Shown here: positions 2,093-12,119 of the stretch, piece after piece | Layout of the letters: each line of letters begins with the position of its first letter | Numbering within the stretch: the first letter of the stretch is position 1 | Virus record (IMG/VR): IMGVR_UViG_3300032829_000023 | Location: 1-39,543 of that record | Origin: a virus | Length of the DNA: 39,543 nt | Reading direction: 5' to 3' (one strand) | The notes under the pieces: model-generated | Told to the model about the DNA's origin: nothing | The model's input: the letters and a program-made list of their open reading frames with translations, nothing else | The model's database searches: none | Position numbers and translations under genes: made by a program

Positions 2093-2662
2093 ATGGACGC
2101 CATCGAGACGCAGCCAGAGCCCGAGTACCAAGACGAGGAGCGCCCGGAGGTCAAGACGCCGTGGCTCCCGGTGACCCGCCTCGACTTCGATTGGGGATTC
2201 GAACGGCTCGCGCAGTGCCAGGCCGAGGCCAACGCCATCGATGAGCAGTACGAGGCGTGGGTCAAGCGGGCCCAGCAGCGCAGGGACGAGTTGAAGGAGC
2301 GGGCGATGCGGGGCGTCCACTTCTTCGAGAGCCGCATCAAGATGGGCGCGCAGGCCGCTCGAGACCAGCTCCTCCGCGGGAAGACGAAGACCGCTACCTT
2401 CCTTCACGGCTCCGTGTCGTGGCGTCGCCTGGGCGGCCGGCTGACCGTCTCGGACCCCAAGGCGCTGGCCGAGTGGCTCGCGACGCAGCCGGTGGAGCTG
2501 GGGCTCTGGAGGCAGGAGATCAAACCCGAGATGAAGGCGCTCCAAGAGCACTGCCGGGCGACGGGAGAAGTGCCTCCCGGAACCGTCTGGGGCGAGGAAT
2601 ACGAGGAGTGTTACGTGAGGGCTGAGCCGCTCGACACCGCACTGGCAAAGGGGAAGCCGTGA
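2093..2662 (+). CDS. Gam-like host-nuclease inhibitor
   Basis: A 189-residue protein resembling the Mu Gam / host-nuclease inhibitor family, which binds double-stranded DNA ends and shields them from RecBCD-type exonucleases. A long charged coiled coil (about residues 40-85, including IDEQYEAWVKRAQQRRDELK) is followed by a beta region (TATFLHGSVSWRRLGGRLTV), as in that family. ATG at 2093 is preferred because it follows CTGGGAGGAACC. An upstream in-frame ATG at 2045 would give an ATGA overlap but has no ribosome site. It directly precedes the ERF gene, the usual partnership of end protection with strand annealing. Confidence 0.75.
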   Translation: MDAIETQPEPEYQDEERPEVKTPWLPVTRLDFDWGFERLAQCQAEANAIDEQYEAWVKRAQQRRDELKERAMRGVHFFESRIKMGAQAARDQLLRGKTKTATFLHGSVSWRRLGGRLTVSDPKALAEWLATQPVELGLWRQEIKPEMKALQEHCRATGEVPPGTVWGEEYEECYVRAEPLDTALAKGKP

Positions 2663-3348
2663 ACACCAGCGAAAGCGTCAAGACCATCGCCGCCGCCTTG
2701 GCCTCCGCGCAGGCCGAGATGGGCAAGATCGTCAAGGACAAGACCGCCAAGGTCCAGACCAAGACCGGGGGCAGCTACTCCTTCGACTACGCCGACCTCG
2801 CCTCCATGCTGGACGTGGTCAAGCCGGCCCTCGCCAAGCACTCCATCGCTCTCGTCCAAGCTGCCTCTGTGAGCGACGGGGCCTTGGTCGTAGACACCCG
2901 CCTCCTTCACGCTTCCGGCGAGTGGATCGAGTCTTCCCTCGCGATGAAGCCCGACGATACCAGCCCGCAGAAGGTCGGGTCGGCCATCACCTACGCCCGC
3001 CGCTACTCCCTGGCCTGCCTCGTGGGCGTGGCCTCGGAGGACGAGGACGACGATGGCAACGCAGCTCAGGGCAACACCGCCCAGGTTGCGCGTCGCGTGG
3101 CCCCAGCCGCGGCCCCCGTCCCCGGAGACAGGCCGGACGTTAAGCCCCCTCCGCCGTACGTCGCCGCTCTCTGGAAGCGCTGCTTTGCGGCTTACAAGGA
3201 GAAGGCCAAGGCAAAGTGGGATGGAGCGGCCTACGCCGTGCTGGGCGACCCGAACGCAGAGGGCTACCCGCCCTCCCACTCGTGGACCGCGGAGCAGGCG
3301 AAGAAGGTCGAGGACGTGCTCTTTCCCCCGAGCGACATCCCCTTCTAG
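2659..3348 (+). CDS. erf: ERF-family single-strand annealing protein
   Basis: A 229-residue protein with the ERF signature in its first 135 residues: an N-terminal helix (ESVKTIAAALASAQAEM), the core KTGGSYSFDYADLASMLDVV, and GSAITYARRYSLACLVGVA followed by an acidic run. ERF proteins anneal complementary single strands and allow phage DNA to recombine or circularise without RecA. The middle is a Pro/Ala-rich linker and the C-terminus a short helical domain ending in DIPF, a tail of the kind that often binds host SSB. GTG at 2659 overlaps the Gam-like gene's stop (GTGA). Confidence 0.92.
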   Translation: MNTSESVKTIAAALASAQAEMGKIVKDKTAKVQTKTGGSYSFDYADLASMLDVVKPALAKHSIALVQAASVSDGALVVDTRLLHASGEWIESSLAMKPDDTSPQKVGSAITYARRYSLACLVGVASEDEDDDGNAAQGNTAQVARRVAPAAAPVPGDRPDVKPPPPYVAALWKRCFAAYKEKAKAKWDGAAYAVLGDPNAEGYPPSHSWTAEQAKKVEDVLFPPSDIPF

Positions 3349-8861: not shown

Positions 8862-9562
8862 CACCAGGCACTAATGCCCAGTGTGGCCTTGATCTGAGTA
8901 GCTAGCGTCGTGAACGCCGCGTCGCTTGCAAGCGTAGTCGAAAACCACGCCTCGTAAATGGTTCCCAGCCATGGTTGCCCGGCGGTGTTGTATCGTCCAA
9001 GATAAGCAATCCGACCCGTCGCCGGAAGGAGTGACGCCGAACCGGCCGTCACCACCGTTCCGAGGTTCAGCTTTTGCACCCAAGTGCTCGTTCCGAAGTT
9101 AATCCCCACACAGACGACGTTCGGGACGCCTGAGATTATGGCGTTGGAGGTGGCGGTCATAATACCCCCGGGTCCCACGCCCATTGTCAGGTGCCCGGTG
9201 GTATTGAATCCAATATAATATCCATTGCTATTGTATAGGCCATTGCAGAACGTCACGGGCTGGGCTGCGTACGAGGAACTCGCCCCCACGATCATGCATA
9301 TTGAGAAATTGCCGGTGAAGTCCAAGACATCATTTCCGGACCCGAGGGAATAGTTGTTCGTGTCCGACGATGGCCCGGAGCCGGGAGGTATCTTTCCCGA
9401 TGCCGAAACCTGGGGCATAGTACCGTTCTGTGTCCAAGAGTTGCCATAGCTATCAACCAGGGCGCCGTTTCGGAAATAGACATGGGCGACGGTATTGGCA
9501 TCGTCGGGAATCAGGGGGCCACGCTTCCATGCAAAGGATGCCTTCATCCAACCCGGGTTCAT
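8861..9562 (-). CDS. LamG/concanavalin-like jelly-roll protein
   Basis: A 233-residue protein with the strand pattern of a LamG-like sandwich: NNYSLGSGNDVLDFTGNFSI, a central stretch with GYYIGFNTTGHLTMGVG, and the closing segment IAYLGRYNTAGQPWLGTIYE followed by AWFSTTL. LamG-type domains bind carbohydrate and are common in phage adhesins. It starts in an ATGA overlap with the upstream gene and runs into the beta-helix gene, so the two may act together in host-surface binding. No signal peptide is visible. Confidence 0.8.
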   Translation of the reverse strand: MNPGWMKASFAWKRGPLIPDDANTVAHVYFRNGALVDSYGNSWTQNGTMPQVSASGKIPPGSGPSSDTNNYSLGSGNDVLDFTGNFSICMIVGASSSYAAQPVTFCNGLYNSNGYYIGFNTTGHLTMGVGPGGIMTATSNAIISGVPNVVCVGINFGTSTWVQKLNLGTVVTAGSASLLPATGRIAYLGRYNTAGQPWLGTIYEAWFSTTLASDAAFTTLATQIKATLGISAW

Positions 9563-9879
9563 CGCTGCCTCCGCTCCAGGTTCTCTTCCATCTGTCCCTC
9601 GATCCTGGCGAGTCGTTCCCTCACGTCTTCCATGTGGACGTTCAACCGGGAGATACCCGAGTCGAACTCATCGAACCGTTTGTTCTCCGCGATCTCATGG
9701 TCCCAGAGCGCGGCCTTGAAAGTGTCCGTGATCGAATCCTTGAAGTGGCCGATCCAGCTCCGCAACCGTATGCCAGCGAACACGAGTGTTCCCATCACTC
9801 CCAGGGCCAACACGAGGAGGACCGTGAATACCGGCATCAGCCGGGCCACCTCGGGTTGGAGTAGGACATCAGGAAGCAT
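9559..9879 (-). CDS. Membrane-anchored coiled-coil protein (106 aa), lysis candidate
   Basis: One strong transmembrane span (VFTVLLVLALGVMGTLVFAG, about residues 17-36) is followed by a charged helical tail with heptads (SRLNVHMEDVRERLARIEGQ). This N-in, single-span, coiled-coil layout resembles small holin-associated or spanin-like proteins, but no known family is recognised. It lies between the lysin/holin-like genes and the surface-binding genes. It follows a 104-bp gap that contains a large inverted repeat. Confidence 0.65.
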   Translation of the reverse strand: MLPDVLLQPEVARLMPVFTVLLVLALGVMGTLVFAGIRLRSWIGHFKDSITDTFKAALWDHEIAENKRFDEFDSGISRLNVHMEDVRERLARIEGQMEENLERRQR

Positions 9880-9983: not shown

Positions 9984-10211
9984 TCACCCGCCCTCACTCG
10001 TCGGTGCAGCCACGGGAGCATTGGAGGTGAAGAACTGGTGAACGTCCTGCGGGGCGACCCCGGCCCAATCGGCATGGGTGGAGACGTGAGCACTGAGGGC
10101 GAGGACGATGCCCTTGACCCACGCCTTGGCCTTGTCCTCTTCCGCGCCGACTACGTTGGAGACGATCGCCTTGATCACGTCCAGAGCGATTCCAGAGAGC
10201 CACGATGGCAT
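9984..10211 (-). CDS. Small protein (75 aa), unknown function
   Basis: ATG at 10211 follows AGGAGGACAAC, a very strong ribosome site. It has an N-terminal amphipathic helix (MPSWLSGIALDVIKAIVSNV), a central helix (KAWVKGIVLALSAHVSTH) and a Pro/Ala-rich tail. It could associate with membranes. It sits between the holin/outer-membrane-like gene and the coiled-coil membrane gene, so a lysis-accessory role is possible but unproven. Confidence 0.65.
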   Translation of the reverse strand: MPSWLSGIALDVIKAIVSNVVGAEEDKAKAWVKGIVLALSAHVSTHADWAGVAPQDVHQFFTSNAPVAAPTSEGG

Positions 10212-10220
10212 GTTGTCCTC

Positions 10221-10931
10221 CTAGAACTCGTACAGCGGTCCGATACCGATGCCCCACTGCCACTTGCCTGCGCGTGAGGCCCCCTGGCCGATCAGGGCCA
10301 GCCGCAAGGACTCCTGCGGAGTCAAGTTGAGCCGCGGGCTCGCAGCGGCCAGGTTCCCGACGAACGAACTCGCCGGACCCCCGGTGGCGAAGCTGAGGCC
10401 ACCCCCGAAGGCGAACTTGCCCTTGTAGTCGAGCATGTAGAGGCCGCCCACGTTCGCCTCCCCGACAAAGACGTGGGTGGAGAGGCTGTACATGTACGCC
10501 ACCGTCGTGACGTTGAGGTGCAGGCTCCAGTCCTTGTCGAGCTGGACCGTCAGAAAGCCCGCCCCGGTATCCGTGGAGACGGTGGTCTCGTCAGCGCGCA
10601 CCAGCCCCGGCATGGACAGGATGAGGCAAAGCAGCCCGAGCACGGCAGCGGAGGCCTTGGGGGGCACGCTTCCTGAGCCGGGAGAGGGGGTGACCGGAGC
10701 GATGGGCGGGGGAAGACTCCCCAGGTCGGCCTGTGCCTTGGACTTGAGCGCCGCGCCCACCGCAGCCAGGATGACCGCCAGGGAGGGCGCCAAGGCCCAA
10801 TGGTACTGGCTGAGGACGTTCGTGGCCCAATCGACCAGCACGACGCCCACAGCGCAGAGGAGACCGACGATGGTGCTCTTGTACGACAGGAAGATGCGAG
10901 TCCAGAGTTCCGAGGCTAGCGACTTCCACAT
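10221..10931 (-). CDS. Holin-like N-terminus fused to exported outer-membrane-like domain
   Basis: A 236-residue protein in two parts. Residues 1-70 contain two transmembrane segments (STIVGLLCAVGVVLVDW and LAPSLAVILAAVGAAL) and end in KSKAQ, like a small holin. A Pro/Ser linker follows, then at about residues 93-112 a signal-peptide-like stretch AVLGLLCLILSMPGLVRA before Asp-Glu. The rest is strand-rich with alternating hydrophobic residues and finishes GIGIGPLYEF, the terminal Phe typical of outer-membrane barrels. ATG at 10931 follows GGGAGGAATCAGT. An internal in-frame GTG at 10667, preceded by AGGA, could make the C-terminal domain alone. It overlaps the upstream gene by 16 nt. Confidence 0.7.
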   Translation of the reverse strand: MWKSLASELWTRIFLSYKSTIVGLLCAVGVVLVDWATNVLSQYHWALAPSLAVILAAVGAALKSKAQADLGSLPPPIAPVTPSPGSGSVPPKASAAVLGLLCLILSMPGLVRADETTVSTDTGAGFLTVQLDKDWSLHLNVTTVAYMYSLSTHVFVGEANVGGLYMLDYKGKFAFGGGLSFATGGPASSFVGNLAAASPRLNLTPQESLRLALIGQGASRAGKWQWGIGIGPLYEF

Positions 10932-11125
10932 ACTGATTCCTCCCTCAGTTCATTGTGAGCTGCGATGTCTTCTCCGGGGAAGCGACGGATAGTGTCTTTT
11001 GCGATTCTCCACGCATGCGTTAGCAGCCAGGCCCTAGGGCGATTTTGGCGGCGCGCTTCCTGATCGATCTCCGTAAGGGTCTCCTTGTCGAATGAAAGTC
11101 CCTGTACGAGAACTCGCCCGTTCAC
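10916..11125 (-). CDS. Small ribbon-helix-helix-like protein (69 aa)
   Basis: GTG at 11125 in a GTGA overlap with the lipoprotein gene. The sequence VLVQGLSFDKETLTEIDQEA followed by a second helix with HAWRIAKDTIRRF looks like an RHH/CopG-type fold (one strand and two helices). The family is suggested by pattern only. A DNA-binding regulator inside a lysis/envelope block would be unusual. It overlaps the downstream holin-like gene by 16 nt. Confidence 0.55.
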   Translation of the reverse strand: MNGRVLVQGLSFDKETLTEIDQEARRQNRPRAWLLTHAWRIAKDTIRRFPGEDIAAHNELREESVCGSR

Positions 11126-11760
11126 GATCCGCTCCCGGTCGCCGCGAACGTCCCGCAGGTTGTCGTTACCGTGGCCGTGAACTGCTGCAAGCCCCCTGTG
11201 TTCAGGTTGGCGGTCGTAGGCGATACAGCCACGGACAGAATGTGATCCACCACGGTGACCGTGGCCGTGGCTGCTCCGCCGACGCTGCCGGTCGCTACGA
11301 CCTGATAGGTTCCGGCGGAAGAGGGCGCGGTGTAGAGCCCAGACGCCGTCACGCTACCTGCGCCGGTCCCGACAGAGTAACTGACCGTCCCGGACATATT
11401 ATAGGTGGTTGCGAACTGCAGCGTCGTGCAGGCATCCATCGTGGGAGCAACCGGCGAAATCGTGACCACCGGAGTCACTGGAGCAGTGACGGTAACGGTG
11501 GCCGTTCCGCTGATGCTGGTATTCTCCGTATCCGTCGCGGTGACGATGCACGTCGCGGCGCTAGCGGGAGCAGTATAGACCCCGGCAGCGGTGATGCTTC
11601 CGCAACTCGTTGACCATGTGACCGTCGATGGCGTAGCCGTGAACGCCTGCGTTCCTTCTGTGGAAAGCGAGACCGTGGAAGGCTTCACGGTGACTTCCTT
11701 CGGGCTAGATCCACCACAGGCCGAGAGGACAAGGAATGCGACGAGGGTAGCCCGCTTCAT
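11122..11760 (-). CDS. Lipoprotein with tandem Ig-like (BIG-type) domains
   Basis: A 212-residue protein. ATG at 11760 (ATGA overlap with the lysin gene) gives MKRATLVAFLVLSACGGSS, a textbook lipoprotein signal with an L-S-A-C lipobox. Two Ig-like repeats follow, each with the pattern G-x-Y-T-A-P (AAGVYTAPASAATCIVTATD and ASGLYTAPSSAGTYQVVATG). A third copy begins (ILSVAVSPTTANLNTGG) but stops before its YTAP strand. The protein would be anchored in the host envelope rather than the virion. Position next to the lysin suggests a lysis or surface-modification role (inference). Confidence 0.8.
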   Translation of the reverse strand: MKRATLVAFLVLSACGGSSPKEVTVKPSTVSLSTEGTQAFTATPSTVTWSTSCGSITAAGVYTAPASAATCIVTATDTENTSISGTATVTVTAPVTPVVTISPVAPTMDACTTLQFATTYNMSGTVSYSVGTGAGSVTASGLYTAPSSAGTYQVVATGSVGGAATATVTVVDHILSVAVSPTTANLNTGGLQQFTATVTTTCGTFAATGSGS

Positions 11761-12119
11761 TCGATGACCTCCAGGTCTCGATCCCCCGAGCCCCAGATCG
11801 CCCAACGATAGACCCGAGGAATGATGATGCAACCGAGGCTACCCGTCCCTGCCAATGCGGGATCGGCCATGTCTCCATGGATCAGGAACGCGCTTCGCCC
11901 GAACATCTCGTTTGACGGGTCGGGCGTCAGCGGCAGAGCAAAGCCCCCGTGCGTCGGCTGCGGCGGCCCGATGGTGTACCGGCCTCGAGGAAGCGGGCCC
12001 ACGTCCGGATCCGCTTGCATGTCCGGATTGTTTCGGCCTAGGCCGTGCCCCGAGTAGCCCACGCATACAGGCGTGGCCTCGCTCAGGACTCCCCCACTAT
12101 GCTGGCGGAAGTACCACAT
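11757..12119 (-). CDS. Tlde1/DUF2778-like L,D-transpeptidase-fold lysin
   Basis: A 120-residue protein with the hallmarks of the DUF2778/Tlde1 type: VGPLPRGRYTIG (about 40-51), then FGRSAFLIHGD with His81, then GTGSLGCIIIPR with Cys97. The His ... Ser-x-Gly-Cys pair is the catalytic signature of the L,D-transpeptidase (YkuD-like) fold. Tlde1 proteins cut or exchange peptidoglycan peptides. In a phage lacking another visible lysin this is the best endolysin candidate. It has no signal peptide, so it would need the neighbouring holin-like protein to reach the wall. ATG at 12119 shares one base with the upstream stop and is followed by the lipoprotein gene in an ATGA overlap. Confidence 0.82.
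   Translation of the reverse strand: MWYFRQHSGGVLSEATPVCVGYSGHGLGRNNPDMQADPDVGPLPRGRYTIGPPQPTHGGFALPLTPDPSNEMFGRSAFLIHGDMADPALAGTGSLGCIIIPRVYRWAIWGSGDRDLEVIE

Follow-up and report, generated by a model that had tools for sequence, protein, structure and literature searches.

A phage gene that joins a holin-like two-span region to a predicted internal signal peptide and a barrel-like domain

The fusion gene and its neighbourhood

The window analysed here is the whole stretch of 39,543 bases of the uncultivated virus record IMGVR_UViG_3300032829_000023. It carries a podovirus-like late region on the minus strand, which includes the following genes:

34539-33142, minus strand: terminase
32185-30257, minus strand: portal
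29271-28024, minus strand: major head protein
21702-18685, minus strand: internal-virion-like protein

The late region terminates in a lectin-like protein and a beta-helix spike-like protein, both recognised by weak matches. On the plus strand, the region 2659-3348 encodes an ERF-type single-strand annealing protein (E 5.8e-25). The gene of interest, referred to below as the fusion gene, belongs to a group of small late genes:

11757-12119, minus strand: Tlde1-domain protein of 120 residues, candidate endolysin, with an IHGD...SLGC motif (PF10908)
11122-11760, minus strand: Ig-domain lipoprotein of 212 residues with the lipobox LSAC (phrog_13745, E 8.8e-06)
10916-11125, minus strand: 69-residue protein, weakly ribbon-helix-helix-like (RHH_1, E 0.046, below the cut-off), overlapping both neighbours
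10938-10946, minus strand: ribosome-binding site of the fusion gene, GAGGGAGGA, 6 bases ahead of its ATG (sequence and pairing energy)
10221-10931, minus strand: fusion gene of 236 residues, encoding a two-span part, a linker, an internal signal peptide-like segment and a barrel-like domain (open frame, codon score)
9984-10211, minus strand: 75-residue protein with a strong ribosome-binding site, no function assigned
9559-9879, minus strand: 106-residue protein, single-span, carrying a charged, coil-like tail (weak start site, -3.6)

The genes run in the order gp153, Tlde1, Ig lipoprotein, 69-residue frame and fusion-gene ATG, and they overlap by TGATG between gp153 and the Tlde1 gene (12121-12117), by ATGA between the Tlde1 and lipoprotein genes (11760-11757), by GTGA between the lipoprotein gene and the 69-residue frame (11125-11122), and by the 16 bases with which this frame extends into the fusion gene. 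The Tlde1 neighbour scored 50.2 bits against PF10908 (cut-off 30.1, E 4.3e-13), and its IHGD...SLGC motif resembles the one in L,D-transpeptidase-fold enzymes. In other phages (L004, L008, L011 and L012) an Rz-like frame comes after the Tlde1 domain, and in the last three it overlaps with an Rz1-like lipoprotein frame, these assignments being made by anatomy, namely one N-terminal span and a nested lipoprotein frame, and not by family match; the last three phages also have two-span membrane frames upstream of the Tlde1 gene. By analogy with this context, the cluster is probably a lysis cassette, with the Tlde1 protein as its likely endolysin. When every frame in the window was searched, the Ig protein was the sole plausible late lipoprotein, so that no Rz/Rz1 pair is evident. 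The 106-residue protein, for which no relative was found, may have a spanin-like or a regulatory role and is possibly oriented C-in, as judged from acidic residues before the span and basic ones after it. The Tlde1 domain was also seen in jumbo phages of Erwinia and Dickeya, where it is annotated as DUF2778 or hypothetical protein.

The original prediction placed a single frame at 10221-10931 without naming a strand; the span and its 236 codons proved exact, and the strand is minus. Using a codon-usage score trained on ten long late genes of the phage, we obtained +0.43 for residues 1-70 and +0.45 for residues 116-236, the five other frames being lower and mostly negative. The score of the fusion-gene frame drops below zero solely in the Pro/Ser/Gly linker at residues 71-92. 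The pairing energy of the GAGGGAGGA stretch before the ATG is -11.8 kcal/mol, near the top of the genome. These observations support a single gene that is coding in both halves.

Anatomy of the fusion protein

The following features were assigned within the gene:

10824-10874, minus strand: membrane span 1, residues 20-36 (hydropathy; helix 21-40 in the low-confidence model)
10746-10796, minus strand: membrane span 2, residues 46-62 (hydropathy; helix 48-70 in the low-confidence model)
10656-10745, minus strand: linker, residues 63-92, basic and then Pro/Ser/Gly-rich, predicted cytoplasmic (sequence, positive-inside rule, low codon score at 71-92)
10665-10667, minus strand: proposed internal GTG start, unsupported
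10593-10655, minus strand: internal signal peptide-like segment, residues 93-113, with a cleavage-like site between VRA and D (hydropathy; (-3,-1) rule)
10224-10592, minus strand: barrel-like exported domain (predicted), residues 114-236 (alternation, composition)
10224-10247, minus strand: C-terminus GIGPLYEF, which fits the GxxOxO beta-signal of outer-membrane proteins (cf. GVGYRF of OmpX)

That a single frame encodes a two-span part, a segment resembling a signal peptide and a barrel-like domain, as had been proposed, is supported by hydropathy and barrel statistics. Residues 1-70 had been described as a two-span holin; two hydrophobic spans were indeed found by hydropathy, but profile searches gave no match of the fusion protein to a curated holin or outer-membrane family. 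A third hydrophobic span covers residues 95-111. The segment around it reads K92, the core AAVLGLLCLILSM (95-107), a P-G break, V-R-A and then D114, the cleavage position being assigned by rule only, and its hydrophobic run of about 19 residues is long enough for an uncut anchor. The signal peptide suggested earlier, VPPKASAAVLGLLCLIL leading to SMPGLVRA, is therefore present as a hydrophobic stretch with signal-like anatomy; an internal start of its own was not supported. Neither an N-terminal lipobox nor a C-terminal span was found in the protein by sequence and hydropathy.

The N-terminus carries a charge of +2, D34 lies at the outer end of span 1, and K63, K65 and K92 lie in the linker. 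Under the positive-inside rule, these charges suggest an N-in/C-in hairpin for spans 1 and 2 and place the C-terminal domain outside, past the third segment. Since the third segment is signal-like and the charge-based topology leads outward, the full-length product could itself export the C-terminal domain, and cleavage by signal peptidase I may follow.

To evaluate the C-terminal domain, we compared it with outer-membrane barrels of E. coli K-12 and with 66 soluble E. coli stretches. The 123 residues 114-236 showed alternating hydrophobicity with z 3.36 and a mean moment of 1.08, on a scale whose Tyr, Trp and Gly values had been adjusted ahead of the control test (the earlier unadjusted scale gave z 2.2). 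The barrel controls scored 3.57 (OmpA), 3.53 (OmpW), 1.6 (OmpX) and 1.29 (PagP), and the soluble stretches had a mean of -0.23 and a maximum of 2.99, below the domain. No stretch of the phage's own proteins reached this score (0 of 44, the Ig, lectin-like and spike proteins included). In composition, the domain is nearer to barrels than any of the 66 soluble stretches, yet falls short of barrels themselves; it contains no Cys. The earlier description of a beta-rich domain ending in Phe agrees with these data: the final Phe is present, and the barrel-like statistics and the GxxYxF ending, shared by only one among 3090 mechanical ORFs from related loci, are beyond chance. AlphaFold2, run without relatives, returned low-confidence models (pLDDT 42.5 for the whole protein and 42.7 for the domain) with about seven strands at residues 119-178 and helices, not strands, at 188-219.

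No homologue of the full protein or of either half was found in viral and genome contigs, phages, plasmids and 56 related virus records by searches that reach close relatives or curated profiles and may miss distant homologues, and there was no usable match in Pfam, PHROGs, NCBIfam or PDB. Nor did any homologue assign the full-length protein to a family of inner-membrane proteins, an outcome that would have refuted the original prediction. As judged by sequence, the fusion protein is thus an orphan; conservation backs no part of it for want of a homologue, and the case for it is built on one orphan sequence and statistics. Because neither half matches a known family, the terms holin and outer-membrane protein denote a resemblance of anatomy alone. 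Several apparent matches were discarded. A phrog_198 'holin' match (E 0.028) is non-specific, as this family scores in 11 of 14 control genomes, archaea included; a match to the designed protein 8pjs in PDB (E 1.7e-4) was attributed to composition, as no single stretch passes by itself; and when the N-terminal part was compared with 308 two- and three-span ORFs, the best pairwise scores fell mostly on mechanical ORFs and were disbelieved. TerL relatives of 41-52% identity exist, and many of them also have the gp897, gp1005, gp567 and gp307 proteins. The fusion architecture is absent from the TerL relatives and from the records with a gp897 homologue. As the genes past gp897 differ and none has such an architecture, the module appears to be a variable part of the genome.

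A possible route through both membranes

Computation shows an open frame with three hydrophobic stretches and a signal-like segment, barrel statistics for its C-terminal domain, and the surrounding genes; from these features we infer a topology, cleavage, outer-membrane insertion and a role in lysis. Our preferred reading, which we regard as tentative and somewhat short of an even chance, is that one precursor, probably cut, provides a holin-like hairpin and an outer-membrane barrel domain for lysis. The gene would yield one polypeptide, whose spans 1 and 2 would enter the inner membrane as an N-in/C-in hairpin resembling class II holins, while the basic Pro-rich linker would remain cytoplasmic. 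The third hydrophobic segment would act as an internal signal peptide, so that the C-terminal 123 residues would be exported via Sec, and signal peptidase I would probably cleave past VRA (residue 113). The freed domain may then fold into a small barrel, which the C-terminal GxxYxF signal would target to the outer membrane. Late in infection, the hairpin could contribute to opening the inner membrane so that the Tlde1-type endolysin can pass; the outer membrane could be the target of the barrel domain, no Rz/Rz1 pair having been found in this phage. The bolder version, in which signal peptidase splits one precursor into two proteins, a holin for the inner and a barrel for the outer membrane, that breach both membranes and replace spanins, we consider unlikely.

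Class II holins cross the membrane twice and keep both termini inside (N-in/C-in; PMC9636201). The fusion protein is like them (e.g. S of phage 21) in its two short spans with basic flanks and in being encoded by a phage near a cell-wall enzyme gene, but differs in having no family match, a 170-residue extension and a third hydrophobic segment. With OmpX, the OmpA barrel, OmpW and PagP it shares a signal-like segment, the alternating pattern, composition and an aromatic-x-Phe end; unlike in these small barrels, the signal is internal, behind two spans, no sequence relation was found, and the barrel fold is a prediction. The nearest logical precedent is fbcH of Bradyrhizobium, a fused precursor of cytochromes b and c1 with an internal signal peptide that is cut by signal peptidase. 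There, too, an inner-membrane protein, an internal signal peptide and an exported part are made as one precursor; however, the proteins are unrelated respiratory ones, and the exported part does not leave the inner membrane. Phages of two-membrane bacteria are known to use separate inner- and outer-membrane proteins, or a spanin that fuses both membranes. If the preferred reading is true, a barrel borne on a holin would be a further route through the outer membrane, the host signal peptidase would produce equal amounts of both parts, and annotators would be warned that exported domains may hide behind membrane proteins by means of internal signal peptides.

Alternative explanations

The third segment is of anchor length, and the protein might stay uncut: three spans would anchor it in the inner membrane, its barrel-like domain would lie in the periplasm or the outer membrane, and it would form a single-molecule, spanin-like bridge. 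Such a bridge would suit a window in which neither an Rz/Rz1 pair nor a second late lipoprotein was seen, and u-spanins, in which one molecule joins both membranes, are said to use beta-sheet oligomerisation (PMC9636201). The unimolecular spanin gp11 of phage T1 likewise combines parts for both membranes in one phage protein with a beta-rich outer part, but the fusion protein differs from it in lacking an N-terminal lipobox and a C-terminal span, and the two do not align. Moreover, only about 7-12 residues separate segment 3 from the first predicted strand, too few to span an intact periplasm, and the cleavage-like site after VRA is a good one. We find this bridge improbable.

A comparably low probability is given to an outer-membrane modifier unrelated to lysis, e.g. 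a superinfection-exclusion or surface protein with its own anchor that acts with the Ig lipoprotein. The gene does lie near the lipoprotein gene and directly before the tail-spike-like genes, and a cor locus of the T1 type, past the tail genes, encodes a lipoprotein together with proteins named outer-membrane and membrane-associated (PMC13164509). As a model for the fusion gene this locus was rejected: its two membrane-named proteins show no similarity to the fusion protein, and a signal-like start is missing from the T1 'outer membrane protein'. The cluster also includes a Tlde1-type cell-wall enzyme, which speaks against a modifier. Apart from this question, that T1 gene (L137, 28607-28912) has no barrel-type ending either, and its name may mislead.

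The C-terminal part may instead be a beta-rich periplasmic domain, not a barrel, on a three-span inner-membrane protein, perhaps a lysis regulator. The AlphaFold2 models are of low confidence and place helices in part of it, and the T4 antiholin RI is a periplasmic lysis regulator with a cleavable signal (PMC8385771). Nevertheless, the alternation, the composition and the GxxYxF end fit barrels better than they fit the soluble controls or the phage's own beta-rich proteins, and we see about as little chance for this explanation as for the preceding two.

More doubtful still is the mechanism put forward originally, namely two products from two starts, the full-length protein and a shorter one from the GTG at 10667. 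This GTG is in frame, at codon 89, and has AGGA upstream at 10674-10671; its product would begin with an ordinary N-terminal signal peptide, and weak sites are also found at some accepted genes of the phage, e.g. at the 106-residue gene (-3.6). However, the spacer of just 3 bases is short, and the pairing energy is -4.3 kcal/mol at the GTG versus -11.8 at the ATG. Among 317 internal in-frame ATG/GTG codons from 23 genes of this phage, 105 have a site as strong or stronger, so the AGGA/GTG pair does not exceed chance, and no relative shows the start to be conserved. Since the charge-based topology already exports the C-terminal domain, an internal start is unnecessary, and one translated polypeptide that carries its signal peptide internally is the simpler explanation of the anatomy and fits better. 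Thus, the anatomy in the original prediction was largely right, while its two-start mechanism is unsupported. Phage lambda produces S105 and S107, two products of one lysis gene, from a dual-start holin; the fusion gene shares with it, and with other cases of in-frame second starts, the idea of two products, but its second-start site is no better than chance.

Finally, an assembly or sequencing error that merged two adjacent genes is very improbable: the region comes from a single metagenome record, of which searches found no second copy, and the codon score dips at residues 71-92, but the hypothetical second gene would have no good ribosome-binding site near its start, whereas most neighbouring genes have one, and the Pro/Ser/Gly composition of the linker accounts for the dip.
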